A DNA stretch of 64,000 nt from Tachypleus tridentatus (lineage: Eukaryota > Arthropoda > Merostomata > Xiphosura > Limulidae). A model generated the notes under the pieces. The model was given only the letters and a program-made list of their open reading frames with translations. It was not told the origin of the DNA and did not search any database. The DNA lies in contig NC_134834.1 of NCBI RefSeq assembly GCF_004210375.1, positions 11,703,857 to 11,767,856 of the forward strand. Direction: 5' to 3'. Of this stretch, positions 3,211 through 31,400 are shown one piece after another (position 1 is the stretch's first letter; every line of letters starts with the position of its first letter). A program made the position numbers and the translations under genes.

Positions 3211-4296
3211 AATAGTCATATGCATACCGGGTCTAATTTGATGCAGAGAAAGAGAACAGTCTTTGATGTAATATTATTATAATTAATTCTAATAAACGAA
3301 CCTTTTGAAAATGAACAATTCTTACAGAGTCTTAAAGTAAAGAATTTGCTATCATTGTGATCAGATAATATTTTTAACTTAGTAAAAATGTCATGGAAGC
3401 AAAGTGAGCATTATTTACCTGTTTTATCAAGTCAATTTCTGTTCACATTTCCTCAAAAGTTACTATAAAATAACTGAATGTTTTAATGTTTATATTGTGT
3501 ACATATACATAATTATATGGAAGAGATAAAGAAAATATAAGCCTGTTCTTCTTCTATATGAAAAACTTTCAACAACTTTGTGCACTGAAGGTAAAGCTGT
3601 GGTCATCACTGGATGTTATCATGCCTAGCTTCCCACAACCATCATATCTGTGAAAAGGGTTAGTGAGTTATCCAGGGTATGTGAAAACAGGAACTGGTGA
3701 TCACTGTCCTTCCACCTTTTGTGAGACTTTTATACATTACTATGATGTATCCACAACTAAAACACAGTCAGAACTAGTTACAAAATATTACTGAAAAGTA
3801 CCTGCATTCTTCAAAGAAATATTAACAAACTTGACAATAATATATATAACTAAATTAAATAACTCTAAATCTTCAGTATACGCGAGATGTCACCTTATTA
3901 TACAACATTTATGTAACAAAACCTGATGAAAAACAAAATAAGAAACATATCTGGAATGGATACTACTACATTATGATGAATTGTACACATTTCATCCAAG
4001 TACACGATAGACAATGTGTGGTACTGTTCGATAAATGTGGAATATAAAAGATATTCAAATTAATGTTTAGTCACGTAAAAAATGGAAACTTGAGATTGAA
4101 AAGAAATGGGTTCCCCCCCCCCTAAGTCTAGTGATATGCATTTAGAATTTTAAGTAAAAGATACTGAGCTTGAAGGAAAAATGAGGTTTCTGATAACATA
4201 CATCCATAATATGAAAATCAAAGAATGATGTATACTCAGGTACACCAAGAGGGCAGCACCTTCTACTGAGCAAAACAATGGGCTACAGTACAGAAG
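3211..4296 (-). other. 3' flank and probable 3'UTR of betaglycan
   Basis: AT-rich sequence after the stop codon with no open frame of note. No clear AATAAA was found on the minus strand; an ATTAAA (plus 3482-3487 reads tttaat) is a weak candidate polyadenylation signal. A C-run lies at about 4113-4122. Confidence 0.35.
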
Positions 4297-4442
4297 TTAC
4301 GCACATGCATGCACGGTCATGGGTGCTTGGGAGCTTGGGGTCGAGCTTCCGCTGTGCCCCGACAGGTCACAGCCTGAGTGGTGGTGACGGTGACGATGGC
4401 GAACATCCCTCTGTTGCTGAGCTCGGGTTCTTTGAGATGGAT
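4297..4442 (-). CDS. TGFBR3: Betaglycan last exon, cytoplasmic tail and stop
   Basis: 146 nt of coding sequence, phase 1, ending at TAA (4297-4299). Acceptor is TCTTTTGTAG. The tail is polar: a basic RTRAQQQR stretch, an RHRHRHHH run, then SGHSGSSTPSSQAP, which resembles the Ser/Thr-rich vertebrate tail (GSTQSTPCSS). The C-terminus is H-A-C-A and not the vertebrate S-S-T-A, so the class I PDZ (GIPC-binding) motif is not conserved. This exon is much richer in G and C than its surroundings. Confidence 0.86.
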
Positions 4443-7400
4443 CTACAAAAGACACAAAGCATGAATCCCAAATACCCTTCTAATAGTAGTTTTATGTCTG
4501 CTTTTGATCATCGAGTTTATCAGCCCCAACTTTACTTCTCATGCACTTGTTTTACCACATTTAATAACAGGAGAAACAGTTTTCAGAATCACAGTTCATA
4601 TACCAAAAGCTGGGAAAATACTGGAATCCATTAGGCCTAATATTTGCAATAAAAATCACTTGAGACTTCAGTTGTTGTTTTTACTTGATTTATAATTTAT
4701 TTCATACTTCAAGCTGGAGGTAATCTAAAAACAGTATTTAAGGTTCATACAAGAAAGATTTTCATTCGATGTTAGAACTAACCAAGACATCTATTTTTAC
4801 ACACCAAAATGAACATATTAAAAATAATTTGAAAGAAAAAGGAACATTACGATTTATGTGATTTATGAATCAAAACTTTTAACTTATTATCAATGGCTGA
4901 ATAATTAACAACCTTAATTCAATTAGATTTGGTTTTTCTGCTAAAAATGTAATTATTACACAAGTCTGATTACCAAGTTTAATCATGTACCTAATCTTTC
5001 ATGTTGTTTTGGTTCATTGGAGAAGTGATTGGAATTTTCTTCATCATGACCACATTAGACATTCACTAATGTAAATGAAACATTTTGCAGAGTTCAATAG
5101 ACAACCACTCCTTTCAATGGTATGAATCAATTTTTGTTGATTGTACCAAAATATAAGAAATAAAAAATATTTACCAGTTTGAGATCAACCTCACTATTTA
5201 AAGAACTAGTAAAAAAAAGTGACCCATAAGTTATATGCTAAAATTAGCTAACCACAAAGGTCTTATGTCAAGGTTTGGCTAACCCTAAAGGTCTTAAACC
5301 AAGGTTTAGCTAACCATGAAGGTTTTATGCCAAGGTTCAGCTAACCCTGAAGGTTTTATGGCAATATAAATACAAAAAGAATTTTTGGTTTTTACTTACT
5401 AAACTTGCTTGTGGATTATATGATTCTTCAGCTTTTTTGTTCAAATCTAAATTTTATGAATTCTTTTCAATGTCTGACTTTTGTTTGAGTTCTATAACTA
5501 ATTTTATCTTAATATTTCAAAGGCTGAATAAAGTAATACATGGTAGTCTCTGAATGATCATGAGTCTTCGCTCCTACATGTTCAAATCTCAAATTGGTGG
5601 AGAAAATAAGAATCTGGTTAAATCAGTGGCATACTTAGGTTGGGCAAGAGGGTACTCAACCCCATGGTCTCACAAACATAAACCTTCACTAATAGAAGGT
5701 TCTTAACTATGTTAATGAAATGTTAACATTTCAGAGCCTTATTAATGTAATTTCTGAACATTTTCCCTTTTCCTTTCTGTTAAGAGGAACTTGAAACTTC
5801 TTCTAAGCTTGGTGACTTCACTCAATCTTCCATTTTTAAGAAACCCATTACTAGCATTTTATTTCAACTGGTCTAACTTTCTACGTCTTGTCATGAAAAC
5901 GAACTGGTTCCAAACTACTGATCCACACAGATTTTTATGTAAGCCTAATTTATACAAATTAGAAACAGTTGAAAGTGTTGTTTCATTCCTATATCTCTGC
6001 CAAATCCACAAACCACACAACTTTCACTTTAAAACTTTGAGAAGACACTACAGATCTAACGGTCAATAAGCTCATTTATACAAAGATTTTACCAGTCATA
6101 GGTGTGAAAAAATTTGAAACCACTGGCTTAGAAGTCGAAGATACCCAAAACCTGTAAATATGACATCAGAGAGTGATAATAATGAGAAATGTATTTATTT
6201 AGAATCAAACAGTACGTTAAATATAATATTAATAGCAATCTTATTAATAAAAGAATTAATAGTAGAACCTACACACAATCTAATTTGTACCTGTATGCAA
6301 GTGTATAAACCATAAAACAACCACCAGTCCAGCTCCAATAAGGAAAGAGGCAAAAGCAATTCCTACAACAGCAGCTGTTGACAGTTCCATCATCACGTGG
6401 CTCGAACAAGATCCTGCACTTATGTCAGATTTGACCACTGGCGATATCCTATCGAGATTTTTATCCATCACAGGAAGATAGTTAAACAGGAAAGGAGCTG
6501 GAGAGGTACACAGAACATCACTTCTCTTCAGCAAAAATGAATCATTTATATTTATAGGTCAAGCATTCTGCTGTAATCAAAATGTTTCTACAACGAGTAA
6601 CATATTTGAGTAAAACAATGAAATCTCATGACTTTAGTTATGTGTTTTTAAGTGGTTTATAATTCAAAATAATATTTCATAAGGTCCCTCTCCTCCTGAT
6701 GGAACTTTGCTTGTTATTCTGCTGTCCAGTTGATTTGGACACTGTAGCAATACTGACCTTTTTATGTCTTGAGCATTAAAAGTTGCTGTTTCAACACAAA
6801 GCTACAAGAATTACCTGCTAAAGCAAATCAATCCCTGAAATTTAGCATTTTAAGTCCAGAAACTCACTATTAACCTTCCAGAAGAAACAGCTCGTTGTTA
6901 TCATGTTACTCTTTCAGTCTGATAGAGTCCCTGAAGAGAATTGAAAACTACCTCCAACGAAAAATACAATATAACATTCTAGTAATTGTGGCTTTTCCTT
7001 ATTCCTCAATTGACAGACCCTTTTGTACACTGTTCAGAAACAGTGGGGGTTCACGTAATGCAATACATTGAATATGTTTTGCCTGTCATAAAATTCTGTG
7101 TTAAAGTTAAGAAAAATTATGTTCATTTTCTATTTACAATGCACAGAAAACCTCAAGACTGATTAGTGGAATTAATTGTACTGTTGATTGGTTTGTGTAC
7201 AATTCATATAGGGAATCCAAATGCTAATTAGGGTGGATAACAGTAGTTATTTTTTGTGTATATAAAGTAAATGTTACAAGGTGCCCTATAACCAACAAAA
7301 TTGTGTAAATAGTTTAGAAAAATGTAATAAAAATACCCATGTCTGAGAGTAACTGTAAATGGACTCCACTGGTGATTTTAGGGTTAACTATTCATTAATT

Positions 7401-10400
7401 TTTTATCTAAAAGCCTTTTCTTCAAATCTTTAAACAGCTTTACTCACCATTAGCGTCTTTCCCTCGAGTTTCCCGAGATGGTAGTACATATATTGGACCT
7501 TCGACTTGCACACTGAAGTGTTGCTCCGTCCGACTTCCCGAAACCTGCTCAGCATCATTTCCCACACAATAGTCCTTTGGGTCAATGCACTATTAAAATG
7601 AATATTTTGTTCCCGATTTCATTTACAATAACTTTAAAATATATCATTTGTGGCAGTTCTGTAAAGGAAACATCTTCAAAGGTTTTTGTTTTGTTTGTTA
7701 TCCAGCACATAAATGTATACAATGAGCTATATGTCCAGTGCCCACCATGAATGTTAAAACCAACATTACAGCATTATAAGCTTCTGAAATGAAGTCAAGA
7801 CAATAAAGAAAACGACGTACGTACGTGTCAAACAATGTTACAATACCACATATAAACATAATGGATAAAATATTGTTACTACAAGAATAGAGCACTGATG
7901 TTTGTTTTGTTGTTATGTACAAAGATACACCATTGGTATCAAAATTCTGTTTTTAGTGTCATAAGCCTTCAGACTTATCGTGAAGTTACCAGGGATGAAT
8001 CAAATATTAGATCATTATTATTATTATTGACAAATGTTTTATTATTATTTGTTTTTATCAGAATTTATATAGTTAATAACTTGAAATATAAGTGTCAATC
8101 TAGTTAATTTATATTCTATTACAAGTTCTTAAAAATGACGAATTAATTTTTTTATGACCTAACTTGACTTTACTTGTGAAATTACTGTTTGAGAAATTCC
8201 ATCAACTTCAAAATATTTTGCATTCCCATCATAAAAAATATACAATTGTGGCTCTATATTATACACACAATTAGTGGAATTAATCTCTCAACTTCCCACA
8301 CTTCTGAACCTCCATTTTTGACACGACCTAGTTAAAAAAAAATCAATTTTGTCTAACAAGAAATCAAACATGAGAAATGTGTTTGTAGCATTAAGAAAAA
8401 ACGTAAAACGTAACAACCTCCCCTTCATATAAACTAAAACATCTCACCTGTTTCACACCATCAAGTGGACTGTTGGGTTTGTCAGAACAGACAGCAAGAC
8501 GGCAGTGAAGAAAAACCTTGTGGCCAATCCACCTCTGGGTGAAGTGAAAGAAAAACCTCTGTTGGTAACTCAACTCCTCAGGACTGCGCGAGCCATGATG
8601 TTCAACACCCAACAGACCAACACTCAAATGTTTGGGGCAACTAAAATCAAGATAAAAATACAATACGGTACACATGAAGATAAAAATACAATACGGTACA
8701 CATGAAGATAAAAATACAATACAGTACATATCAAGATAAAAATACAATACAGTACATATCAAGGTTGTTAAACATTTGTTTATCTTCATGTGAATGATCA
8801 TCCAAGATAAACAATGTCCACGAAAGATGACTCCCCCATCACATACATATGTACAAGATAAACAATGCCCACGAAAGATGACTCCCCCATCACATAGATA
8901 TACAAGATAAACAATGTCCACGAAAGATGACTACCCATCACATACATATGTACAAGATAAACAATACCCACAAAAGATGACCCCCCATCACATACATATA
9001 TTATTTTCCTTAATCAGCATCACTTAATCAATTTAAAACATTGTATTCAGTATTTAAAAAAAAAATTCATTAAAGTTGCCACGTTATATTATAAATTGTT
9101 TTTACTTTCTACAAATGAAGCGCTAACTCTGTTATTCCAGTCACACATTTTACTTCAATAGAAGGATCATTCTGCCCACCATTCTTTTTTCCAGCCTACT
9201 TCTCCATATCATTCTAGCCTCTAATCCTCCCCCTCATATTTACCCACTTCTCCATATCATTCCGGTCTCCAATCCTCCCCGTAATATTTACCCACTTCTC
9301 CATGTCATTTTAGTCTCCAATCCTCCCTGTAATATTTACCCACTTCTCCATATTATTCTAGTCTCCAATCCTCCCCCTCATATTTACCCACTTCTCCATA
9401 TCATTCTAGTCTCTAATCCTCCCCCTCATATTTACCCACTTCTCCATATCATTCCAGTCTCCAATCCTCCCCCTCATATTTACCCACTTCTCCATATCAT
9501 TCTAGTCTCTAATCCTCCCCCTCATATTTACCCACTTTTTCATATCATTCTAGCCTCCAATCCTCCCCTTCTAAATATGATAATTTATGGGGTTGTTTAC
9601 CCCTTAGGCCACAACTGAAGTTAAACTAGTATACAAATTAAATACCTCATATAAAAATGAACAAAAAGCATTTCCTATTATACAAACTTTACTACTGACC
9701 TATTAGAGAAAAACAAAAATTTTAAGAAAGATGAACTTTTAATCAATTTAATTACAGGCTTCTCCATTAACATTCTGCATCTAGTAAAGATCATGTCAAG
9801 ATGATACAACCAGTTTGGCCTTGAAGATGATGAGTTGAAACCTTAGAGTTTGTACGACCATTCTGAAACTGTAGCCTCAATGAAATATTTTATTACTTTG
9901 TAACTCAACTTTAAACTTCATTCTGATGACTGGTCAACAGAAATGAATCCATTCCAACTAATATTCTTTTAACAGAAGAACTCTCAAAAAAACAAAAGGC
10001 AGCATTTTATATAAATATATCCATTACACATTTTATATAAATATATCCATTACACATTTTATATAAATATATCCATTACACATTTTATATAAATATATCC
10101 ATTACACATTTTTTACAACTGGAATTTCATGGTTAACAGTTACACATCCACTGGACTTAAAAACGTAGCAGCACTGATAAGAAACAAAGGCTAAAAGGAT
10201 TGCATTTACCAAAATCACTTTCAATTATTGAAAATTAATCTAGACTTGTGTTTATTACTACAACAGTGATTACAAACAACCTCTAAGTTATGAACGTATT
10301 TCAACATTTGTTTATAATCACAAACGACAGTTTTCCTGAAATATATCACTGAATATCCAATAACATTTCACTAAACGTTTGCTTTTTTACCTGTGTTGAA

Positions 10401-13400
10401 TCAATACTTCTCGATTTTCAGTAATTACAAGTGAATTATTTGTCAGAGATAACCAGCACTCATCAGTTACGACAAACAAGTCAGGACCTGAGGATAAATA
10501 ATTAACAATTTCACACAGCTTGTAAACATTGTACAAAAATAATTGACAATTTCGCACAGTCTGTGAACAATGTATACAAATAATTGACAATTTCACACAG
10601 TCTGTGAACAATGTCTACAAGTAATTGACAATTTCGCACAGTCTGTGAACAATGTCTACAAATAATTGACAATTTCGCACAGCCTGTGAACAATGTCTAG
10701 AAATAAGTAACAAGTTCCCACAGCCTGTGAACAATGTTTATAAATAAGTAACAAGTTCACACAGCCTGTGAACAATGTCTATAAATAAGTAACAAGTTCA
10801 CACAGCCTGTGAACAATGTCTATAAATAAGTAACAAGTTCACACAGCCTGTGAACAATGTATACAAATAAGTAACAATTTCACACAGCCTGTGAACAATG
10901 TATACAAATAAGTAACAAGTTCACACAGCCTGTGAACAATGTATACAAATAAGTAACAAGTTCACACAGCCTGTGAACAATGTATACAAATAAGTAACAA
11001 GTTCACACAGCCTGTGAACAATGTATACAAATAAGTACCAAGTTCACACAGCCTGTGAACAATGTATACAAATAAGTAACAAGTTCACACAGCCTGTGAA
11101 CAATGTCTATAAGTAAGTAACAAGTTCACACAGCCTGTGAACAATGTCTATAAGTAAGTAACAAGTTCACACAGCCTGTGAACAATGTCTATAAGTAAGT
11201 AACAAGTTCACACAGCCTGTGAACAATGTCTATAAGTAAGTAACAACTTCACACAGCCTGTGAACAATGTCTATAAGTAAGTAACAACTTCACACAGCCT
11301 GTGAACAATGTCTATAAATAAGTAACAACTTCACACAGCCTGTGAACAATGTCTATAAATAAGTAACAAGTTCACACAGCCTGTGAACAATGTCTATAAA
11401 TAATTAACAAGTTCACACAGCCTGTGAACAATGTATACAAATAAGTAACAAGTTCACACAGCCTGTGAACAATGTATACAAATAAGTAACAAGTTCACAC
11501 AGCCTGTGAACAATGTATACAAATAAGTAACAAGTTCACACAGCCTGTGAACAATGTATACAAATAAGTAACAAGTTCACACAGCCTGTGAACAATGTAT
11601 ACAAATAAGTAACAAGTTCACACAGCCTGTGAACAATGTCTATAAATAAGTAAGCAGTTCACACAGCCTGTGAACAATGTCTATAAATAATTAACAAGTT
11701 CACACAGCCTGTGAACAATGTCTATAAATAATTAACAAGTTCACACAGCCTGTGAACAATGTCTATAAATAATTAACAAGTTCACACAGCCTTAACAATG
11801 TCTACATTTTCAATATTATTTGTCACAATCATTAAATTTCATTGCTACCAATAAATAAATTAATATCAAACATCTACAATGGTTTTATTATATCAAAATT
11901 GCTATACATCACAGTAATTCCTGTATGGAAGTCCAACATTGATGTCCACTTTTCTCCATCATGTACCCCTCAATCAAGAATCATTTTTATTCAAATTAGA
12001 TCACAATTTGCTATGCTTAAAATGTTGACAACCACTCGCTACAGATTTCTTTAGACCAATCGTGAAATGCAAGTCTAACCGATCATTCTAGAACCCAAAC
12101 ATGTCAATACAAATTTCTGTTGTTGTAAATGAAATAACAATTTGATCTAAGAGTTTGTTTTAACTTGTAAACAAACCTTACATGACAGAAAAATATGAAT
12201 ATTGTTTTAGAAATCTGCATAACCAAATTTTGAGAAAACCGTTATTAGACTAAAATGACTTTTATGAAGTTCAGATTTACGGGTCTGTGTAATTGACCAC
12301 AAGTCATAAATAACCAATTTAAAACACACCTGCTTCTATAGCAGTCTTCACATACACATTGTCTTGAGACAATACTTCTAACAAACCATTCACTCGAAGT
12401 AGCTTTTTGTGAAAGTCTGAGTCTTTGTACAGGTGCATATGGAACACATGAGGGTGGTTCACCTAGGAATATAAACTAGTTACACCAACCACATCCATAA
12501 CTTACAACATTTAAAGCACAGTTGTTACACAGTTTGTATTCACTCATTAAAAGAAACTCTTAACTTTTGTGCATTCTAAAACTGAAGATTATTTTTAAAT
12601 AACTTTGTGGTAAACCAAATTAATATCCCTCACACTATTTTCATCACATAAGAAGTAACATTTAAGATTTCATTTGTGAGGGGTGGGGATGTTAGAGGTT
12701 CAGGGAAGTTAAGCCTCTGGAATGATTTGAGCTTTCTTAGGCCTATAATAAAAAAAAAAAAAAAACTGGTCTATTTTGGGGTTTAGGAGCATTTGCTCCA
12801 GTTATTTCCAATATTTCTTAAAAGCAATTCAAATTGCACAGAAATAGTTCAATGATCATAAAGATAATGTTGGTATTATATTATTTGGTACATTTTATAT
12901 AAGATTTATTGTATATTACATGTTCCTACTTCATTGTTTTAATTCACATATTAAAGATCAAACTTGAAACGTTAGAAAATATTTCTTATGTTATATGGAA
13001 CTCAAAAAATATTTAGCATTGTTTGCAGGTCCTTCACATCAGGGGTGTAGATTTTTTACACCCGATGGGGGGTGGATGATTTTTGCAACCACCTATGTGG
13101 ACTGTTCAATTTGTAAATTGGTAATCTCTGATTACATGAACCTGAAAGCTGTAAACATGCAGTCACAGAGTAATCTTGTTGCCACGATACTTGCATGTAT
13201 ACTTAGGCCTACTGACTGATACTTACGAACTATCGCTTAGATCAAAAAGCTTAGAAGCACGCCTATATTAAAGATGCACATTTCGGCTACTGAAAAAGCC
13301 TACATCTAGGCCTAATTATGCAATTCGATTGGTAAGAACACGAGAATCACAAGAACAAACATGCAATTTGTAGGCCTGTGATGCAATAAAACAATTCAAC

Positions 13401-16400
13401 AGACCAAACTGTAGGGGGAGATGATTGTATGCACCATAACCCCCACCTAAAATGAAGGGTGGATGTATACCATTCATTCCCCCCAGGATCTACGTCCCTG
13501 ATTCACACTGATTTTTTTGTTGGTCTGTTTATATATTTTAATAAAACCTTTACTATTATATTTAATATTTTCATTTAAACATACTCTTTCACAAACATAA
13601 ATATCACTATGATTTCTTTTTAAAAAAATAAAAAAAGACCTAACCTCTTTAGGTCTGCTTCTGCTACCAGTCATATTATAAACACATAGGATATTTTGGG
13701 TGAAAAGAAGTCTTGACTGGGTGATCCCTTGCTGATTTGCAAGGACTTGTTTAAGGTGGTGCCCCACTCCTGATCCATCGTCTGAACTAATCATATCTTC
13801 ATCATCAGCAAAGCTTTCATCAAATTCACTACTCAAATCTTTCTGATTACCCAAAATCCCTTTTGGTCTGACGGGTGCCCAAAATAATACCTGTAGAAAA
13901 TACATAGTGTTTTTTTTAAAATATATAATCACTGATTTTGCCAATAATTTTCTGTTTGGAACAAAACACGACCAACTATAAATGTAATAGTGGTATACAA
14001 ACCATGTCACATCTGGAAAAAGAAAAAAAATTGAATCACTAACAAATCATATTGAATATTACAACAAAATTATACTTGCTGAAGAAAAACATAAGGCTAA
14101 GGCCTTTTCAATATACAGGACTGTCTTCTCTTTATTTTTATTATCACATTATAACAAATTAAAAACAACTTTCATTCTGAGGGCTCGGAATGGCCAGGTG
14201 GGTTAAGGTGTTTGACTCATAATCTGAGGGTTGCAGATTTGAATCCCTATTACACCAAACATGCTCATCCTTTCAGCTGTGGGGGCATTATAATGTAACA
14301 GTCAATTCCACTATTTGTTGTTAAAATAGTAGCCCAAGAGTTGGCGGTGGGTGGTGATCACTAGCTGCCTTCACTCTAGTCTTACACTGCTAAATTAGGG
14401 ACAACTAGTGCAGATAGCCCTTTTGTAGCTTTGCCCAAAATTCAAAAGAAACAAAAACAAATTTGTTCCGAGTCTACTTTTTTTAACCCTACCGACATGG
14501 GTCATGACCCAAAGTTCATGTCATCGTGTCTGTTGACTTACATTTAACATATTACTGAGCCATGTCAATGAGTTTCTTATCAAATCAAAATTTTTGTATT
14601 ATACATTAGTTAAATGCTTAATTTAAAAGTAAATATAAATAAAATAATCTAAATATAGATTCTAGTGAAGGAGTTAAATCTTATTAAATGACACAACACA
14701 ACACCCTTGTCACCATACCTGGTTCTTGTAATAATACCTCCTCCCATCAGGAACCATGCTGGACCCACAGCTGTTTAGGTTGGTTTCCAGGATATAATGG
14801 GTTTTATTACTTCTTGCCTTACATTCTTGGTCCTTTAATGTAACTTCAAGCCAGCCAATGTTGGCTCCATTTAATTTAGTAGCAATTTTCATGCACGAAG
14901 ATTTGGGAAAGTTTACTTTTATCTCATTCTTTCTGCACTCCAGATTCGTCAAACTATCCAACTCCCAATGTAAGGTTTTCATCGACATTTCCCGTTTCTA
15001 TAAAATTCAAAACAAGATTCGTTGATAATTATGAAAGTTATACCAGTTTCATCATTACTCTCCATACACTATCAATCACAGATATCTTTACCCTTAAAAT
15101 CATACATAACTGCTTAACTAGGCTCCTCGTGCCTTGTAAACAAGGTATTAATTAAATCAGCCTATTACACAAAAGGGCCATTAATCATGTTAATAATACA
15201 ACCAATTGCAATACTAATGAAGTACATAGTCACAAATAGGCTTAAAGGTAACTCAAAACAAACCTAATATTATTTATACCCCTTTAGAACTTTAAAGAGG
15301 GATTTTTAACTAACAGCCCACAGGGCACTTCTGGGCCACAGAGATGACCAAATGGCCATGGCCAGTCAGCTACAGATTACAAAAAAATATCTAAAATAAA
15401 TATGAAAAACAAAATGAGTGACACTATAGATAAGTTTTTGTACATGTGACATCACCTTTTTCCTTTACTATCCACTAAAGTTGCTTAACTACTTACAAAG
15501 TAAAGAACTTCTGGCTTGCTTATTCCTAATTTTAGTCCCAATTATAATCACATGGAAGCCAGAAACATATGTATAGTACAATGTAGAACCCAGAACAAAC
15601 TTATTAGGAGGCCATTGAGAGGACTTAATATGGGCTCTAGTAACTCAAGCCAAAGTACTGTCCAGTTCACAGAAACAGTTGAAGAACCTTACCCTATGAT
15701 AGACACAAGTTCTAAAGTTTTTCTGGTTAAAGAGTTTTTCATTTATCACAACACTGTAGCTGATGTAGAAAAGATATCCATGATATGTAAACTTGCCAAG
15801 AGAGAGTTCACAGTCATGTTCATGTTTTCAGACACGAAGGACAAGGCTCCTTTCCAAATGCCTTTAAGTTTAACCCTTTCCAGATTAACTGACCATTTTG
15901 AGCAGTGAACACTTATAATGCCCACAGTATTTTCCTATTAATTCCCTCTAAATGTAATGTTGGTGATTTTTGTAACTAACTAATCGAAATTATGTACATG
16001 ATGGAATTATGTCTTTTTGTTTTTCCTGTTTCATTAATGAAAATATCATTCCATCATTAAATACGGCTAGCTCACCATTTCTGTTCCGTATTTTATGATT
16101 CCACGATGTAAAAGGATATGCAGTAGTGTTAAGTTTTGTCTGGTGAGATAGAACAGGCTGGGCTTTATCTTGGCCAACAGAGAATTTATTCCGAGATGAC
16201 CCACCATCACTCTGTACATTGTAGTGGTTAGAACCTAAAGAAAAGATATATCTGGTCAGGAAAACTAACATCTTCAATGGACTCTACACTGATCCTACTA
16301 AAAATACTGATCTAAGTAGTTATATGATGATTAAACCATCATGGGTAAATTAAGTTACTTCATGTTTCTCAGCTCCATATCTTACACTTGTGGTTTACAA

Positions 16401-19400
16401 GACACTACTGTTTTTTTACTACCACCACTAACAATATTAACAGTTATCAATGACTAACCAAGAATCTCTCCTACAACCATAATGTTGACTCTGTTGACTG
16501 TCCAAGATTCTATGACTGTCGAAATATTGCTGTCAATCACTTCTAATGTCAATTCTTCTAGGGTAAGAGGAAGACTTCGGACTTGAACTTGTAAAAGATG
16601 GAAGGCAGGCATTGATCCTGGAAACACCTGGTGTTCAGCCTAAAAGTAAGAAAGCAAAACCAATACAATAATACAAGTCAGAAGGTTCTTATTACACACT
16701 TAGCTTAGTTATCATTGTTTATTCATGTGAAGACACAGTCTACTGCAGCTAAAAAAAACAAGATAATATACATTGAATTAATAACGGAAGTAATAGATAC
16801 CAGAAACTATTTTAACAGATTCACATATATCAGTAACCAATTTAATTAGGAATCAGTTATATCAAAGTAACCAAACACAACTGCTTCAAATTCATTATCA
16901 CAACTTTAACAGTATTTATCCCAATACTTTCCCATCACAATATCTTACAACATGGATAACAATCACACAATATCTTATCATACAAAATAAATATTCATAG
17001 TAATATCCTATCGAAACTATTTACAACAATAATTTCCACAATGTTACAAATATTTACAATAATTGAAAGAATACCTTACTACAGTGGATAACAAACAAAA
17101 TAAACACTTATTACAGAAAACGGTAGTTACAAGAATCTATTTTCACATGAGCAGTACCCATCTGACTCTTATAACATTGTGTAAAGTATCTATAACTGTA
17201 CCTTGTATATCTATAAATATACAGATCTCTTACCACAGCTGGTAGTACCTATACAGATCTCTTACCACAGCTGGTAGTACCTATACAGATCTTTCACCAC
17301 AGCTGGTAGTACCTATACAGATCTTTCACCACAGCTGGTAGTACCTATACAGATCTCTTACCACAGCTGGTAGTACCTATACAGATCTCTTACCACAGCG
17401 GTAGTACCTATACAGATCTCTTACCACAGCTGGTAGTACCTATACAGATCTTTTACCACAGCTGGTAGTACCTATACAGATCTCTTACCACAGCTGGTAG
17501 AGCACCTATACAGATCTCTTACCACAGCTGGTAGAGCACCTATACAGATCTTTTACCACAGCTGGTAGTACCTATACAGATCTTTTACCACAGCTGGTAG
17601 AGTACCTATACAGATCTCTTACCACAGCTGGTATTATCTGTACATATCTCTTACCACAGCTGGTATTATCTATACAGATCTTACCACAGCTGATATTATC
17701 TACACAGATCTTACCACAGCTGGTATTATCTACACAGATCTTACCACAGCTGGTATTATCTCTTACCACAACATAGACAGTGCCCTGAATTCCCCAGCTA
17801 TCAATTCTCCACTTGACTGCTGAATCAGACTTCAGTATTAAAACTAAATCCTTAGCAACAACTATCTTGCTAGTCCTTGCCTCAGCTGCCCCTTTGGGAT
17901 GCAGATGAACAACGACTTCACTGAATTCTTCTGTTGACAGTAGTTTCACCACATGAACATCCCTAATTAATAATTTTGACATTAGTTTCACCACATAAAC
18001 ATCCCTAGTTAATAACTTTTACACTAGTTTCACCACATAAACATCCCTAATTGATAATTTGGACACTAGTTTCACCACATGAACAACCCTAATTAATAAC
18101 TTTGACACTAGTTTCACCACATGAACAACCCTAACTAATAACTTTGACACTAGTTTCACCACATGAACATTCCTAGTTAATAACTTTGACACTCGTTTCA
18201 CCACATGAACAACTCTAATTAATAACTTTGACACTAGTTTCACCACATGAACATTCCTAGTTAATAACTTTGACACTAGTTTCACCACATGAACATTCCT
18301 AGTTAATAACTTTGACACTAGTTTCACCACATGTACAGCCCTAATTAATAACTTTGACACTAGTTTCACCACATGAACATCCCTAGTTAATAACTTTGAC
18401 ACTAGTTTCACCACATGAACATCCCTAGTTAATAACTTTGACACTAGTTTCACCACATGAACATCCCTAGTTAATAACTTTTACACTAGTTTCACCACAT
18501 GAACATTCCTAGTTAATAACTTTGACACTAGTTTCACCACATGAACAACCCTAATTAATAACTTTGACACTAGTTTCACCACATGAACATCCCTAGTTAA
18601 TAACTTTGACACTAGTTTCACCACATGAACATCCCTAGTTAATAACTTTGACACTAGTTTCACCACATGAACATCCCTAGTTAATAGCTTTTACACTAGT
18701 TTCACCACATGAACAACCATAATTAATAACTTTGACACTAGTTTCACCACATGAACATTCCTAGTTAATAACTTTGACACTAGTTTCACCACATGAACAT
18801 TCATAGTTAATAACTTTGACACTAGTTTCACCACATGAACATCCCTAGTTAATAACTTTTACACTAGTTTCACCACATGAACATCCCTAATTGATAATTT
18901 TGACACTAGTTTCACCACATAAACATCCCTAATTGATAATTTGGACACTAGTTTCACCACATGAACAACCCTAACTAATAACTTTGACACTAGTTTCACC
19001 ACATGAACAACCCTAACTAATAACTTTGACACTAGTTTCACCACATGAACAACCATAATTAATAACTTTGACACTAGTTTCACCACATGAACATTCCTAG
19101 TTAATAACTTTGACACTAGTTTCACCACATGAACAGCCCTAATTAATAACTTTGACACTAGTTTCACCACATGAACATTCCTAGTTAATAACTTTGACAC
19201 TAGTTTCACCACATGAACAACCATAATTAATAACTTTGACACTAGTTTCACCACATGAACATTCCTAGTTAATAACTTTGACACTCGTTTCACCACATGA
19301 ACAACTCTAATTAATAACTTTGACACTAGTTTCACCACATGAACATTCCTAGTTAATAACTTTGACACTAGTTTCACCACATGAACAACCCTAATTAATA

Positions 19401-22400
19401 ACTTTGACACTAGTTTCACCACATGAACATTCCTAGTTAATAACTTTGACACTAGTTTCACCACATGAACAACCCTAATTAATAACTTTGACACTAGTTT
19501 CACCACATGAACATCCCTAGTTAATAACTTTTACACTAGTTTCACCACATGAACATCCCTAGTTAATAACTTTTACACTAGTTTCACCACATGAACATTC
19601 CTAGTTAATAACTTTGACACTAGTTTCACCACATGAACATCCCTAGTTAATAACTTTTACACTAGTTTCACAACATGAACATTCCTAGTTAATAACTTTG
19701 ACACTAGTTTCACCACATGAACATCCCTAATTGATAATTTTGACACTAGTTTCACCACATAAACATCCCTAATTGATAATTTTGACACTAGGTTCACCAC
19801 ATAAACATCCCTAATTGATAATTTTGACACTAGTTTCACCACATAAACATCCCTAATTGATAATTTTGACACTAGTTTCACCACATGAACAACCATAATT
19901 AATAACTTTGACACTAGTTTCACCACATGAACATCTCTAGTTAATAACTTTGACACTCGTTTCACCACATGAACAACCCTAATTAATAACTTTGACAATA
20001 GTTTCACCACATGAACATTCCTAGTTAATAACTTTGACACTAGTTTCACCACATGAACATTCATAGTTAATAACTTTGACACTAGTTTCACCACATGAAC
20101 ATCCCTAGTTAATAACTTTTACACTAGTTTCACCACATGAACATCCCTAGTTAATAACTTTTACACTAGTTTCACCACATGAACATCAGAAAGTTAAAGT
20201 GTCTTATAAAATAATTTCAACATAGTATTGAATAACCTGGATGTATCAAACATCATAAAAATAGCTTATGGCCCTCAAAAATATGTTCTTAAATACAGGT
20301 CCAGTTTACGTATGGAATAAAATCAGATGTGAGAACACTTCATCTGCTGCATACATAAACAGTTTATAATGTCTCTATACTAACTCTTTCACTTCCATGG
20401 GCACATACAAACACACGTTCCCTCTCTTGAGCGTTGTCATAAGGGTTCAGAAGTTTGTAACTCCGTGAAGAAAGGATGGTCCCCTTCCCTCGGTTTACCA
20501 GTTTCGATATATGGATGAATAATGAGAAACATTATTTTTTGTCTTTTATTGTGTATCTAAAAATAAACTTGTCACTTGGTGAGCTGTTTTTCTATAAAAG
20601 CGACAACAAGTTGAGTGTTTCAGCTAGTAAGTTGGACCAGAGATGAGCATCTGTTCATTGTTGACCATAAAGTTATACAAGAAATATGAAAACCTCATTT
20701 TTAGAACGCTATCAGTTCTTCAGGCTAACTGTTAATCAGTGTGGTTGGGTATAAAATACTGTTTAATTTCTATAGGCCTAACACGATATGGTTGGGTATA
20801 AAATACTGTTTAATTTCTATAGGCCTAACACGATGTGGTTGGGTATAAAATACTGTTTAATTTCTATAGGCCTAACACGATATGGTTGGGTATAAAATAC
20901 TGTTTAATTTCTATAGGCCTAACACGATATGGTTGGGTATAAAATACTGTTTAATTTCTATAGGCCTAACACGATGTGGTTGGGTATAAAATACTGTTTA
21001 ATTTCTATAGGCCTAACACGATGTGGTTGGGTATAAAATACTGTTTAATTTCTATAGGCCTAACACGATGTGGTTGGGTATAAAATACTGTTTAATTTCT
21101 ATAGGCCTAACACGATGTGGTTGGGTATAAAATACTGTTTAATTTCTATAGGCCTAACACGATGTGGTTGGGTATAAAATACTGTTTAATTTCTATAGGC
21201 CTAACACGATATGGTTGGGTATAAAATAATGTTTAATTTCTATAGGCCTAACACGAAGAAAACTTCCCAATGTTAACAAACCTTTTATAAAAATTATCCC
21301 AAGGTGGCAAATCACACTTCAGCTTCAAACGAGGCGTAGGTGACGAAACTTTAGGCTACACTCTCCTTTGTCAACAGTTCACGAGAAAGTAGTGTATGAG
21401 ACTATAATGACAAAACTATTTTAACAAAAAAGTGTCTTTTGAATTTTGAATCTTATAACTAACAAACGAGATAAAAAATAAATAAGTTTTAAGCAGCAAC
21501 AAGATGTAAGCAACAGAACTAAATGACAGAGGAAAGTATTTGGGAACAATGACAATAGATGGCGCTAGTTAAGGAAAGTATTTTTAAATGTTAACGTTTT
21601 ACAATGAAAAGTTTACTCAGGCCTCAGTGATTGTTCTTGGAACTGCGCCAACAAGCTAGGGTTGAAGTTGTAACTCCGCCCAGATAAACCTTAAGGATCC
21701 TCCTGAAACCTGCGAATATAGAACTTTCTTGAGGAGAACCACGTCACTTATTTATAATGAATATTTTACGTTACAACTGAAGAACATCGGTGCACTTTCT
21801 ACAACAACCAGTTTCGCGTCTTCAAATGCTGATGCATCTTTCGGAAACTCAATAGTCTCACGATGTTCCGAGAACCACCACCACCACCCACCACAGATTT
21901 TTAAATAATTCAACTGACAGCGAAAACAAGCGAGTCGACACTGAACATGCTCGCCCTTTTCAGCCGTGGGAGCGTTGTAATGGCACGATAAATTCCAGTA
22001 TTCATTGGTAAAAGAGTGGATCAAAAGTTAGTGAGGGGTGGTGATAACTAGCTGCCTTCCTTCTGATCTAAAACTGCTAAATAAGGGACGGCTGGCACAG
22101 ATTGCCCTCGTGCTCGAAATAGAAAGCAAATTACAGTATGCTGGAAAACAATAAGTCGAATAAAAGTCTCATAATAATGGCGTGGTTCCTCTTGACATTA
22201 AAATAAAACGAACTCAGAGTTTTTTCTGCTGTCATAAAGCTGTGTTTTTGACCTTTAACAACCTGTTACTGTCACAGAACACGATGTAAACAGATTTCTT
22301 TGATTTTCTCTTGTAAAAAACAATGTAATCGCTACTAGTATGAATCGTAGGGCAAGTAGTAATATAACAAAATCAACACGAGCCTATATCATTACGTGAT

Positions 22401-25400
22401 GATTAACGCGGGGATATGGAAATTTAAAGTTGCTCAACTGTCAGTGCGTTATAAGAATGACAGTCAACAGCAGCCACTACTGGCGGCAGATGGTTGTCGT
22501 CTCTCTCATTCAATGAGGCTCAGGAACTTATTTATCTGTTTGTTTAGCCTAGTTGGTTTAAGAAAACCCAACTATGGATATAGGTGCGTATAAATTATGT
22601 GAAAATAGAATATTAGAAAAAAAAATTGGTTACAGAATCTACCAAACAAACGTTTCTATCATAAAGTAACAATAAGATGGCGTGGTACAACAAAGTATGG
22701 TTACAATGATCGGATGGTACAATTAAGTATGATTACAATTATGAGGTAGTACAACAAAGGACATGGTTAGAAAGAAGAGACATCATTAACCAACGGTATA
22801 CATACCACTGGGTTAGACAACTGTGTGCAGAAGTTGTGTTGTCATGACAACAGGAATAAAGATTCCACCTTGATGATTTCTGTTTCCATGACAATATAAG
22901 ACATTGAAATTTTGCCTTGGTAAGATTCGAGTTTTCACGATAATATGAATCACTGAGATCTTTGATTACCATATAATCTCAGATTTCTAGATATTCGATA
23001 TTATTTTGACACTGTCACAGTTTAATTGTTTTCTTTATCCGATAAATGCAGCTTTAAAAATGGCAAACAAAAGCATTCTTACAACAGACTCTACAAATTT
23101 AGTAAAACATCAGTTATATGACCTTTTAAAATGGTGAGATCAGAGGTTACATCAATTGTCTGTCCTGTAACATGGTTGATCAAAGGTTACATCAATTGTC
23201 TGTCCTGTAACATGGTGAGATCAAAGGTTACATCAATTGTCTGTCCTGTAACATGGTGAGATCAAAGGTTACATCAATTGTCTGTCCTGTAACATGGTGA
23301 GATCAAAGGTTACATCAATTGTCTGTCCTGTAACATGGTGAGATCAAAGGTTACATCAATTGTCTGTCCTGTAACATGGTTGATCAAAGGTTACATCAAT
23401 TTCTGTCCTGTAACATGGTGAGATCAAAGGTTACATCAATTGTCTGTCCTGTAACATGGTGAGATCAAAGGTTACATCAATTGTCTGTCCTGTAACATGG
23501 TTGATCAAAGGTTACATCAATTGTCTGTCCTGTAACATGGTTGATCAAAGGTTACATCAATTGTCTGTCCTGTAACATGGTTGATCAAAGGTTACATCAA
23601 TTGTCTGTCCTGTCACATGGTGAGATCAAAGGTTATATCAGGTGTCTGTCCTGTCACATGGTGAGATCAAAGGTTATATCAGGTGTCTGTCCTGTCACAT
23701 GGTGAGATCAAAGGTTATATCAGGTGTCTATTTTCTGAAATCGTTGGTATTGATAAAGAAAAACGTTAAACTCACTTGCAATGGTAACTTGATCTGAATG
23801 TTAATTTATTTTAACTTTTGTATAATTAACAACTCCATTATCATCTCAGGTGTACGAGTCGTCCCTCTGAACCATAAAGATTCTGTGATAATGCTTCACA
23901 ATCAACAGGTACTGCCTACCCCCCGCAGAGCAGATTACATGTAAGCACAAGTACCATATCGCCTTCCTTTCCTCTCTGCTGGGAAGTGAAACTTGTTTAC
24001 ATACGAAGCTGACAGTTTGCCACATAGTACAATGAACTTGGTTTGGATATATGCTATCACAGCATACCGTTTAAAACGGCTGTGTTTAACTTAGCTCACA
24101 TCTAGGTGTCAAAATAAACGTAAACGTAATTGGACTTAACTGGTTCCAAACCAGTCGTGTTTATTCAGGTAATAAGAACTATGGAGTTGAGTTTCAAACA
24201 TTACGCTGAAGCTATAATCTGTTCAAGCCTGTATTTTGATCGAGTTTACACAAACTACCACGAAAAGCCGACAGAAATTTATAGACACGACGTATCCGGT
24301 GTGGAAGACACAAAAGATCCCAGTTTATACGAACCTTTTAGTAGGTCCAATGTTTTCTGACACCGTACAGCCTGCGGCAGGTTGCGGCTGTATAAAGAAA
24401 GCTTCCACATTGTGAACTGATTTCTCGCTGATACCTTCACAAGTTTCCGAATAATTGGCATCTATAAAAACAGAAAATTAAAAATATTAAACAGAAAAAC
24501 ATGTGGTTAGGTATAAGTTCATATAGATTAGAAGTTCTTATATCGTATACTTTGGTTCACTCAGTAACTTACAAAATGTACAAAGAAATAGAAACCCGAC
24601 ACACGAACATCTACTGAAGCTAAAAATAGATTGAATATATTTTATCTGACTTGCGGATGGATACACAAGTACATTAAGAGATACACCAACATACATGTAA
24701 CAACAAATAATTATTCATGAAAAATAGAGGTAAATATGGTAACATTAGCTTTGTTAGCTTAGAAGTAATTTTTTAATTATATGCTCATATAAATCTGCCA
24801 TAATTTTAAACAACCAGTCCTCGCTAATTGGTTACAAATCACACACACTCCACACACGCGCTAATTGAGCTAATCTTTATGTACCTATTGAACTAATCCG
24901 TCCACAGTTAATAGCAGTTTGGTTTGTTTTCTTTTGAGTTTCGCGCAAATCTACACGAGGGCTATCTACGCTAGCCATCCATAACTTGTACGTGTAAGAC
25001 TAGAGGAAAGGCAGCCAGTCATCACCACCCACCGTCAACTCTTGGGCTACACTTTTACCAACGAATAGTGGGATTGACCTTCACATATAACGTCCCTACA
25101 GCTGAAAAGGTGAGCATGTTTGGTGTGACGGGGATTCGAATCCGCGACCCTTGGATTAGGAGTTGAATGCCTTAACCACCAGGCCATGCCGTGCCCGTTA
25201 ATAGCGGAATTTCGCAAGTTTAATTTTCCAGTTTTTATTTGTCTTCCTGATCTCAGCGGTGACTTCTAAAGACATTTACTATATTCGTGTGTCATGATTT
25301 AAATATCACTTCGCATAAGAAGGCAGCTATTTTTTTCCTTCTGCTTTATGTTTGAATTGTATAGAAATGTTTGCATCAAAATGTGTTAGAAATATTCAAA

Positions 25401-28400
25401 ATAATTTGCTATTCGACAAACAAAGCACGTATGGACCTATGAGACAGTTACATTACAAAATTACAGGGTATACACTTATAAAACAAAAAAAAAAATGCGC
25501 TTTTTATTTGCAAGCAGCTACCCGAAGGAAAAATCGATTTCGTACTCTGAATACTCACACAGATAAGGTCAAATATCATTAGCCCAAGGGCGCGGGAACT
25601 GGGGATGAGACGCAACGCCCCTGTACTTCAAGGCAGGGGTTTTATCACGTTTTAACACAACAACCAAGTACGAAGCTTCCACACGGGTTTATAAATTTGT
25701 TACGCTTTCAGCGCCACCTCTGTAAAAATTAAAGACACATTAAACCTACCTATCCCGACCTTCAGAACAATGGTGTTTGCTATTCCGATTATGGACAATG
25801 ACGTCAGTGCTACAAAGCGACTTCTTGCCCACTTCACGATCTTGTCGAGGGGTGCTTTTTGTTTCTGTCGAACCATCAACGTTAAAGGAGCACTAGGAAC
25901 CACCTGGGACTCTTCGGTGACCTGTAACATCAAATTATTTATCTGTGTAAACCCAGTAAGCGGAGATAACAGGTTGTGTGTGTTCGTGTTTGGCATATCA
26001 AGTCAACTAAAAATAAACATAAAAAACACATTTTCTCACACCCTGCACTTATCTGTAGCACAAACGACCACCGTTCTTTAACAGCACACTTAAGTTAAAC
26101 AACTACTGCTTTGTTGAAACTACACAATAACCATATGTGCTGGGTACGTCGCGGAGAATCGAACCCCGAATTTTAACGTTCTAAATCCGTAAACTTACTG
26201 CTGATTCACTAGAAAAATTGATAAGGAGTGTTTATTTGTTGGATTACAGGATGCGCCACAGGAGCAGCAATCATCGTGCTTATTTGTTGGATTACAGGAT
26301 GCGCCACAGGAGCAGCAATCATCGTGCTTATTTGTTGGATTACAGGATGCGCCACAGGAGCAGCAATCATCGTGCTTATTTGTTGGATTACAGGATGCGC
26401 CACAGGAGCAGCAATCATCGTGCTTATTTGTTGGATTACAGGATGCGCCACAGGAGCAGCAATCATCGTGTTTATTTGTTGGATTACAGGATGCGCCACA
26501 GGAGCAGCAATCATCGTGTTTATTTGTTGGATTACAGGATGCGCCATAGGAGCAGCAATCTCCTACGATGTATGTCTACAGTTAAAAACAATGTAGAAGC
26601 TACGGTGAGGTAACTTAGAAACATACACACAGGAATTCAAATCTCAAGAAAAATTAAAAACAATTATCAATCGGAACTTATTACAAAGAACAACACAACT
26701 CACACACAAATGTCACTCATGCGCAATTCTGAGCGAATGTCAACTCACCTTTCATGTTAATTTGGCTTGCATCTAAAACTACAGCTATCTGCGTTAGCCG
26801 TCCCTAATATAGCAATGATAGATGAAAGGGAAAGCAGAAAGTCAACATTACCATCCGCCAACTGTTGGGCTACTTTTTTAACCAAGTAATAGGGGGCCTG
26901 AGCGTAAAATTAAAATTACTCTTCACAACTGAATGGTCAAGCATGATCAGTGATGGGGATTCGAATCCGCGACCCTCACACTGAGATTCGAGCGTCTTAA
27001 TCGCTATACCATGAAATGCACGCGGGTAACTGGATGGTTTTCTGCCACTCTTAATATTTGTTGCTTAGTTTAAGATTTGAAATGACTTTAACCAATTTAG
27101 TACGGTAAACAATACACAGATTTAATACAGAAATATTGTGTGATTCAGTAAACAATACACAGACTTAAGCCTAAAATACTGTTTGATTAATAGCCATTAG
27201 TTCAGTAAATTAATACAAAAAACTCAAGAGAAAAGTTAAACAATTGTACAGTGCGTTATAACACATATTTACTTTATTAAACACAGTACTGCGTACTTTA
27301 TATGCCTACCGTAACAACGGACGATTAGAAATGTTGTTCCACGTCCTGTATGTTCCCCCCCCCCCCCCAAAAAAAAAAAATCGCTAAGTTGTTTGGTTAC
27401 TGTTTGAATTTCTCAGTTCCCTTATAAAGTCGTACATAACGGTTGCGAATAGTTCAACGATGTTCTGTTTACTTTCGCTACATACCCATGATGAGTATCT
27501 TGTACCTAGCAGCAGTCAGGGTGCTATCAATTTTACCTAGGTGTCCAACCACATTCCACTGGCTAAGATGAAACGTTGAAAGTGGTAATACCGTAACAAC
27601 GAACATTTACGTACACATGAATAATGAAGTTTACATTGGGGACGAAACGGATACTTTAACATAGCGTTTTGCTTTTATAATAATTTTCATTGTTCTGTTT
27701 TTTTCAATAGAACTTAGATCTATCGCCGCCATATTGCTTTGGTTCAACATTACAACATCCCTACTGTTTATTGTAGTGCTTCGGACGAAACCTCTGTTCC
27801 TCACTGTTTATTATAGTGTTTCGAACAAAAACTCTGTTCCTCACTGTTTATTGTAGTGGACGGAAACTCTGTTCCGCTGCACACGTTTAGTCAACTGTTA
27901 ACAAATTTATCCATCCTAGTCGGAAACGGGAAATAAACTTATTTAACCTATGATGTCATTTAACCATTCACAAGAACCGCACTGAAGTGTTTTTTGTCGT
28001 GTTTTTTATACAAAACTAAATCTTCCAATATTACTTCAGAATTTTAAACGTCTAACATTTCAACTATGTTAACAAAATCAAAATTTTGAATTATCATCCA
28101 CTTCTGAGCTTCTAAACTGTGGATTCTGGATTTTGAAACTAGGACACGCAAACTGGATTCTGAAACTAGGACACGCAAACTGGATTCTGAAACTAGGACA
28201 CGCAAACCAATTTATTTTTGTTATCGTTTCCAAAGTCTCACACTTTAAACAAATAAGAAATAACTCTATGACTCAAAGGTTTAGATATTGTACGGACCTA
28301 TAAAATTGAAAGCAAAGAAGCGTTTGTTATTATATGTCACGTACATCTCCAATAATTCAATGCCGAAGAGGACCTTCGCGCAATACCAGAAGTCTTTAAT

Positions 28401-31400
28401 CCGACTGAGATAGAACACAACACAGAATAGGTCTTAGCACTTCACACACATGTACAGTACCATTACTTTTCATTGCTAATTACTTTTATGACGTGAAATA
28501 TATTAAACAAGTGGATTGCAGTCTGTCATTTTTTATTTGAGTCATTTATATACCAGACCTTTAGGTTAAATAATAATTAACACAGCATTATATAATTTAT
28601 TTATTGGACCAGTCATTTAACATTTTATTGTATATTTATTTTTACTAATTTTACTTTCGCTCGGTGTCGACAAAATAGTTCATTTTGTAAAAAGTGTTTC
28701 AATTAATTTAAAGTTACTTTAGTTACGCAATCCGCCGCTAGGTTCTGGGATCACGAACCGTTTTGCAAATCGTGAACACAAAACAAGTTACACGAATAAA
28801 TAAAAACATTAAATCACAACGAAAGTTTGTTTCTCTTTAATTAAGCACAGAGCTAAACAATGAGCTGTTTGTTCTCTGCCCATCATGGGTATCGAAACTC
28901 GGTTTCTAGCCCTGTAAGTGCGCAGACATACTGCTGTGTGTGTTTTCATATAGCAAAGCCACATCCGGCTATCTCCTGAGCCATACCGCCGTATCACTGG
29001 ATGGATACAATAAAATACTGTAAACTAATGCCATATAGAAATACAATCTAACCAAGTGAGGCACGTCAACACATAAATACTTCTAATCAAAGTTCATGAA
29101 ATATAAAGTTCGGAAGTACCCTAAATATAGAGGTTAGAGTACGTTGTTTAATAAGTCTGGTACACTTGCTGTTACAAGAATATTTGACCGTAAATATGAA
29201 CTATATACAACAGTGTTCAGACAACAACATTAACGAAGTGTTTAATACGATGTTACAAACGTATAGTGGTGTTAAAATATATTAACAATGTACACGTTAC
29301 AATTACATAATGTTGAAATACATTGTTACTTACGTATAACAACTTTCGTATACGTTTACAGACGTAAGTTACGTATGAAAGTATGTCAGTACAATGTTGA
29401 CATTTAAATACAACCATAACAATGTACAAACATGATGTTAGCATCGCCCAACAACACTCGTACGCCATGTTAGCGACGAAATACAATGTTAAACAGTGTT
29501 TTTACAAGTATATAATACCTCAGTGTAATGAATCTTTACTATAGAACAACCTCTAACAAGTAGGCTTAGATCAAATTTCACAGTAACATCTCGTGAAATA
29601 ATAAACAGTAAGTAATCAAAGATATATTTTCAAGAATAAACAAAGGTGTGTGTTTTCTTACAGCAAAGCCACATTGGGCTATCTGCCGAGCCCATCGAGG
29701 GGAATCGAACCCTTTATTTTAGCGTTGTAAATCCGTAGACTTACCGCTGTACCAGAGGGGGACATAAGCAACGAGGGGGGGTAAGATATTGTTACTTCAT
29801 GCTCTCTCCTTCCATCACGGATACACGACAAAAATTCACGTTCCGAACTTCAGACGTCAGTACTATAGGACGAAACATTCGTTCCGGATCAGTTTAATTT
29901 TGTTAAGACTTAAAGATACTCTGACAATCACGTTTCTTTCAAGGAGCTTCGATGTTTGTATTACAGAGAGAGAACGCAGAGCAGCCTGGTGTTAATGAGA
30001 ACTCGTAGAAACAAGTGTTAAAATAATAAATGAACAAGCTCATTACCTGCCCTGGAGTTGGTGTACATTGGTTTAGCTGTATTACACACGTGCGTTTCAA
30101 TAAAGCCGAAAGGGTTGTTCATACAATCCGTAACTCTAACCTGGATTTGCACGTGTTTGAAGCGACGCTGATTAAGTTCTATAATAAAACTGTAATTCTC
30201 TTCTCTCAGATACTCTAATAAATTATACCACAGAGCGTCAGAGTGTCAAAAAAGAAAACACAATAAGAAATATCATAAGCTTTTCTTTAAAACTCCACTG
30301 TATTCACTTGTTTAATGAATAAAACCAAATAATCTTTGGTAAAACTCGACGAATTGAGGAAGTTGTTAGTTTAATGTGACGTCAATTTAACACGTTTGTT
30401 GTTAAGAAAAAACGCGACAGTCACGTTACGTTAAACACAGCCAAATCATATGTCGTGTTAAACGTATTCAAGTCGTTTTTTTTGCCGCGGCAAAACGGCT
30501 CATAAAATGGCTCTGAGTTTTCCAAGCTCAATATTTTAGCTCATAGCTCCGTCATTTCTTGATCGATTTTAGATCGAATTACAGTTCTGGACTCAGTTTA
30601 GACCCTTTCAATTATCACTTGACCACACTCAAGGTTGCATATATTAATTTCCTCTAATACTGCCTAAAATAACTTCAGCTCAATGGTTGGCTGGTAAAGA
30701 TCCTCAGAGGATAATAAAGTCGAATCGGGTATACGCGCACACTACGCTTTACAATGCTGGCTCAAAAAACATGTATTTAAAAACGGCTGGTATGAGTAGA
30801 GAAAGCACAATGTAGAGGAGCGAACCTGATGATGATCGAAGAAAGTCGAAACGTTGTTCGCTCCTCTACACAATGCTTTCTCTACCCATACCAGCCGTTT
30901 TAAAATATATAATTTTCTCTGCAAGTGGGTTTTCTCGTCATCACGGATCACAAAAACATAGTTAATAAAGGGTGGGTAGGGAGGCCTCACGGATTAATTT
31001 ACCCTAATCCTGTCTAAAAGAATTTCAAGTTCTGCGGCTAATAGAGATTTCTTCTTGTATTTAGAAAAGAATGATGGTTTTCCTGTATAAAACACAACCA
31101 AGTGACGCTTTATAAAAACAAAAAAACATGGCGGTCATGAAAACCTAAATATGTCAGAATCAATCTATTGAATATATCACATATATTAAACAACAAACAC
31201 AACTATTAGGTGTACCTACCACATAAATTAAAATATATATATATATATATCTACTCGATATACCACATACATTAAACAACAAACACATCTACTGGGTATA
31301 CCACATACATTAAACAACAAACACATCTACTGGGTATACCACATACATTAAACAACAAACACATCTACTGGGTATACCACATACATTAAACAAAAAAAAC

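Follow-up and report, generated by a model that had tools for sequence, protein, structure and literature searches.

Two mirage-like minisatellites on the borders of one betaglycan exon in the horseshoe crab Tachypleus tridentatus

Introduction

Tandem repeats that lie across exon–intron borders, 5′ as well as 3′, are known in amphioxus as mirages (PMC3087553, PMC3902484). The available text of these papers describes them in Adh3 and in the globins BflGb6 and BflGb9 (PMC3087553), as well as in TnC and PGBD5 (PMC3902484). They are described there as holding many copies of the splice signals and as varying in unit number between haplotypes, while splicing is reported to be undisturbed (PMC3087553, PMC3902484). 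For the mirage in Adh3, somatic instability has been reported as well, according to the available text.

Two other systems are related. Human variable internal tandem repeats include border minisatellites with units of about 30 bp that change the length of an exon or intron, as far as the available text goes (PMC2812944). The Rogers model, as outlined in the accessible text, derives new introns from tandem duplication of a segment bearing AG and GT, that is, from a short duplication that contains splice signals (PMC3087553; see also PMC4974935).

Here we describe two arrays that flank exon 6 of a TGFBR3/betaglycan homologue in the horseshoe crab T. tridentatus, a genome for which 32.99% repeats, mainly DNA elements and without mention of minisatellites, are given in the text available to us (PMC7815833). 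In a literature search whose reach excluded most subscription journals, no published report of a horseshoe-crab mirage was found.

The locus and its second copy

The window, i.e. the whole stretch of 64,000 nt that was analysed, corresponds to C10:11703857-11767856 of the 2.17-Gb genome of T. tridentatus, and positions are given in window coordinates. The 16 exons of the homologue were placed by tblastn with the proteins P0002, P0003 and P0006. P0002 is the NCBI record "transforming growth factor beta receptor type 3-like" of T. tridentatus, which the exons in the window match at up to 100% (tblastn). Pfam assigns a ZP-N domain (PF23344) to exon 9, and the gene matches human TGFBR3 in the PDB (chain 7lbg_D); both agree with the betaglycan identity. 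A human TGFBR3 sequence was also tried as the tblastn guide; it found most exons only weakly, so the NCBI proteins were used instead. The features around exon 6 are as follows, with the slash marking the splice border:

4290..51480, minus strand: TGFBR3/betaglycan homologue, 16 exons, first and last ends approximate
24335..24461, minus strand: exon 5, upstream neighbour of exon 6 (tblastn with P0002), ending in phase 2 at ACTAAAAG/gttcgt
17767..17962, minus strand: exon 6, 196 nt, peptide DVHVVKLLS...GTVYVV (codon phase 2 to 0 with exons 5 and 7; P0002)
17761..17769, minus strand: true donor at the exon 6 border, positions -3 to +6, GTG/GTAAGA
16459..16639, minus strand: exon 7, downstream neighbour of exon 6 (tblastn with P0002), starting in phase 0 at cttttag/GCTGAA

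Since exon 5 ends in phase 2 and exon 7 begins in phase 0, the borders of exon 6 lie at 17962 and 17767. With these phases the exon starts as TTAATTAG/G GAT GTT CAT and ends as TAT GTT GTG/GTAAGA, and the junctions of P0002 match this placement (GPTK-R-DVHVVKLLS...GTVYVV-AEHQ). The donor, TATGTTGTG/GTAAGAGAT at 17767/17766 on the minus strand, is directly followed by an array. An acceptor at CTGTCAACAG/AAGAATTC was ruled out, because codon phase and P0002 put the acceptor 32 nt upstream.

A second copy of the region lies inverted at a distance of about 0.86 Mb on the same contig (C10:10.79-10.91 Mb; L009-L016 and L023-L026). It is about 98% identical to the window outside the arrays, its exon 6 is identical at 196/196 positions, and the border arrays are common to both copies at other lengths. 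It may have arisen by recent duplication, or it may be the second haplotype, assembled next to the first. Close pairs are also found among the betaglycan loci on C2 and the dynein loci on C8, C9 and C10, which suggests that duplications were recent or that the assembly contains unmerged haplotypes. At about 14943, an extra base in exon 9 of the window copy, compared with the second copy, breaks the reading frame; P0002 ends within an alternative exon at 15287-15369. In two paralogous loci on C2 (L113 and L124) the borders of exon 6 are found at matching protein positions, and neither locus has an array at an exon 6 border. The intron is therefore older than the array.

The acceptor-side array

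Upstream of exon 6, TRF detects an array of 42-bp units with 53.7 copies and a score of 3745:

17934..20187, minus strand: acceptor array, 53 intronic 42-bp units of the form TTATTAACTAG/GGATGTTCATGTGGTGAAACTAGTGTCAA..., with the exon head (17934-17962) as the last copy

With the exon start at 17962, fixed by codon phase and P0002, the array overlaps exon 6 by 29 nt. The unit corresponds to the acceptor region including its AG plus the first 29 coding nt of the exon, and the exon head is identical to the unit at 28/29 positions. There are 53 intronic units in the window and 56 in the second copy, and in the window 47 of the 53 end with AG. The exon head encodes the conserved DVHVVKL-S, with counterparts in P0001, P0003, P0004, P0005, P0007 and P0009. 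Since the units hold conserved coding sequence, the exon edge is older than the array and is its source; read from the sequence, copying would have run from the exon edge into the array. Read in frame, the 42-nt unit gives DVHVVKLVSKLLTR. An in-frame stop is present in 9/53 units of the window and in 7/56 of the second copy, in both cases including unit 2. Thus the array is not coding.

The donor-side array

The donor side carries a shorter array:

17218..17770, minus strand: donor array made up of 18 units of 22-34 bp that each bear a donor (TRF and unit splitting); the true donor together with the final 4 exon nt is its first unit

TRF reports 17218-17755 with period 32, 16.8 copies, 93% matches and a score of 819, while splitting at the donor motif yields 18 units in the window, of which the last is partial, against 20 in the second copy. 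The array extends 4 nt (TGTG, by eye) into exon 6. The border-spanning property is thus weaker here than for the acceptor array, and so short a stretch shared with exon 6 gives a weak indication of the direction of copying. Thirteen of the 18 units are unchanged relative to the true donor over positions -3 to +6, therefore a nine-base model cannot separate them from it. The array is polar. The exon-side units are degenerate, with identities to the far-end consensus of 0.53, 0.81, 0.78, 0.84 and 0.88, and the far-end units are nearly uniform (0.91-1.0).

These data bear on an earlier note on this DNA, made from the letters alone. Its central observation, a minisatellite of donor copies directly after the exon 6 donor, is confirmed, and so are the acceptor copies on the other side of the exon, built from a unit unrelated to that of the donor array. 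Against its estimate of about 17 units of 28-32 bp, the motif count is 18 and the unit lengths are 22-34 bp. The statement that each unit contains CTGTGGTAAGAGATC was too strong; this 15-mer is exact in 8/18 units and only the shorter GTG/GTAAGA is kept in 13/18. The data support the suggestion that sequence was copied locally at each border of the exon; the acceptor, with its conserved coding sequence within the units, is the clearer case.

Comparison with described systems and proposed origin

The note knew of no named phenomenon of this kind, which is wrong in view of the amphioxus mirages at 5′ and 3′ borders (PMC3087553, PMC3902484; available text). Judged by sequence, exon 6 has the anatomy of a mirage on both sides. 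Minisatellite arrays sit on its borders (TRF scores 819 at the donor and 3745 at the acceptor) and the unit spans the border, firmly for the acceptor (AG and 29 exon nt) and more weakly for the donor (4 exon nt). Splice signals are kept in most units of both arrays (13/18 donor and 47/53 acceptor units). In addition, unit numbers differ between the two loci, 18 against 20 and 53 against 56, whether these are haplotypes or a recent duplication. In contrast to amphioxus, the host is a chelicerate, and one exon is flanked by two mirages of unrelated unit. The acceptor mirage also has more units, 53 intronic ones compared with 6 and 3 given for amphioxus BflGb6 in the available text. The novelty lies in the host group, in the presence of two mirages at a single exon and in the copy number. 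The mirages found in our literature search were from amphioxus, and this case takes them to a chelicerate; a single 196-nt exon has up to 54 near-identical acceptors on one side and 18 donors on the other.

The other two systems are less similar. The human border repeats, according to the available text, were found through transcripts and often represent novel introns (PMC2812944), whereas here the intron predates the arrays. Unlike in the Rogers model of intron gain, no new intron is created, as matching exon 6 borders are found in the array-less paralogues.

We consider it most probable, with a probability of roughly 0.8, that the exon 6 arrays are two independent mirages, a by-product of a minisatellite-prone genome. 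A segment over the donor, comprising about 4 exon nt and about 18-28 intron nt, would have been duplicated in tandem, and a separate tandem duplication would have covered the acceptor with about 13 intron nt and 29 exon nt. Both would have been tolerated, as they left the outermost borders of the exon whole and all extra copies were intronic. Slippage or unequal exchange would later have lengthened the arrays at their intron-side ends, and the units near the exon would have aged; such far-end growth would explain the identity gradient of the donor array. The spliceosome would join the innermost acceptor and the innermost donor, the pair that gives the shortest exon. P0002, an NCBI protein record, has this innermost pair.

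Arrays and splice borders

The recurrence of a 13-nt match in the abutting array is not a matter of chance, but it is a consequence of the donor itself being the first unit of the array. The question that matters is whether arrays lie on borders more often than expected. In the window, 24 arrays with a TRF score of at least 100 cover 23,369 of 64,000 bp, more than a third, therefore border-straddling arrays are to be expected. Their units are mostly about 20-60 bp long and differ between arrays. Under a neutral founder model, in which each array is one founding unit dropped at random, 0.56 border-straddling arrays are expected in the gene and two are seen (P=0.11).

A different origin would be that minisatellites arise preferentially at splice borders, for example by breaks or slippage tied to transcription and splicing. 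We regard this as unlikely. Evidence for it comes in part from the gene itself, where two further arrays lie close to acceptors:

10494..11804, minus strand: 41-bp array of 32 copies (TRF), stopping 6 nt short of the acceptor of exon 12 (10391-10487)
8646..8763, minus strand: 28-bp array of 4.2 copies of a polypyrimidine tract (TRF), stopping 5 nt short of the exon 13 acceptor (8448-8640); the second copy has 3 units

In the gene, the arrays closest to a border lie at -29, 5, 6 and 11 nt from it, and the next at 278 nt. Arrays at or within 11 nt are found at 4/30 internal borders, compared with a mean of 0.25 under random placement within each intron (P about 5e-5). When both introns adjacent to exon 6 are left out, two arrays within 6 nt remain against 0.11 expected (P=0.004). 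In the gene as a whole, four arrays straddle a border or lie within 7 nt of one, against 0.66 expected (P=0.005). This excess hints at a bias beyond plain neutral birth. However, the gene was picked on account of exon 6.

The earlier note had proposed a check of array–border coincidence, which was run here on a sample of exons. Outside the window, exons with 180-220 nt of flank were taken from 81/86 myosin-head places (80 regions) and 12/91 dynein places, together with 26 exons from two of the three C2 betaglycan loci. Exon ends in this sample are the ends of profile or tblastn matches, with correction by eye for L038, L069, L076 and L111 only. Eight arrays with a score of at least 100 were found near these exons, at about 7, 13, 28, 32, 58, 62, 73 and 111 nt:

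L038, C9:5680532-5681151: myosin exon, 21-bp array stopping 7 nt before the acceptor
L076: myosin exon, 62-bp array 13 nt after the donor
L111, L126 and L069: arrays at 28 nt, 32 nt (66 nt on the other side) and 58 nt
L130, L124 and L101: arrays at about 62 nt, 73 nt and about 111 nt

The first two cases speak for border-biased birth. Two of eight arrays within 13 nt of a border are, however, no clear excess (P=0.14, computed with L130 at 63 nt, which is 62 by recount). The array at L079 (29 bp, 1.9 copies), about 21 nt before an acceptor, is outside the count, as its score of 94 is below the cut of 100.

Two further comparisons were made, both excluding L099, which has two exons. When borders were compared with their own flanks, 8/266 scores were above every cross-locus score, with about one expected, and two of these eight belong to exon 6. 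When border windows were compared with intron windows (234 each) at scores of 14, 16, 18 and 20, self-duplication was found in 10, 5, 4 and 3 border windows and in 32, 13, 8 and 8 intron windows, a comparison tilted somewhat towards introns, as border windows are two-thirds exon and intron windows are richer in A+T. A border excess is therefore not claimed as a general rule: it is strong in the gene and unconfirmed outside, and the intron-window control shows local duplication to be no rarer away from borders. That minisatellite birth in horseshoe crabs favours splice borders, with a sizeable share of exons carrying arrays of their own splice sites, seems to us rather unlikely. If border-biased birth were true, it would be new, and the genome would be a natural experiment in which the spliceosome chooses among dozens of identical neighbours.

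Three single cases were noted besides. Downstream of the myosin exon L096 (C13:187368569-187369107), its donor occurs a second time together with 4 exon nt, a young, two-copy case. At L042 a degenerate second copy of the exon head is found upstream, which may be left over from an alternative exon. The NCBI model P0006, from Limulus polyphemus, opens (residues 1-43) with a 17-residue repeat in duplicate, immediately followed by AEHQ, with which exon 7 starts; judging from this protein, the repeat may reflect a different array, Limulus's own, abutting exon 7.

Splicing and the remaining readings

The earlier note also proposed that the copies buffer or scatter splice choice. In such a reading they would be spare or alternative sites under selection, in line with the intact motifs counted above in 13/18 donor and 47/53 acceptor units. 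Moreover, the 42-nt unit equals 14 codons, so use of acceptor unit 1 would extend the exon in frame by 14 open codons, and the donor at +144 nt is in frame and open. However, the spare donors at +22, +52, +82 and +112 nt shift the frame, and the one at +144 is the only one of the 17 downstream donors of the window copy that is both in frame and open. On the acceptor side, the stop in unit 2 is shared by both locus copies. Splice buffering is unlikely, given these four frame shifts and the stop that every acceptor past the first spare one runs into. Furthermore, P0002 has the innermost pair, and exon 6 of the two paralogues does without arrays. We thus find the proposal unsupported and a functional buffer quite improbable. 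If transcripts take the innermost pair only, exon 6 would be a clean test, provided by nature, of exon definition and of site choice among equal sites.

A coding role of the acceptor array, as a 14-residue protein repeat or an alternative exon, could be suggested by the long open frames across it (148, 153, 223 and 153 aa). However, in-frame stops interrupt 9/53 units, among them the second unit from the exon, and a second DVHVVKL beside the first is absent from P0002 and the other NCBI proteins compared (by eye), which makes this reading very improbable. An assembly artefact, which the double occurrence of the region might suggest, since like other genes it may represent unmerged haplotypes, is the least probable of all, because a false array is not expected twice with the same internal variants, and in both copies the two arrays occupy the same borders, differ in unit number between the copies and have exon-side units in common.

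Among other elements at this locus, a broken mariner/Mos1-type transposase with an HTH_48 domain is found at 46472-47156 in two overlapping frames, and a relative is located beyond the window at about window coordinate 84475.
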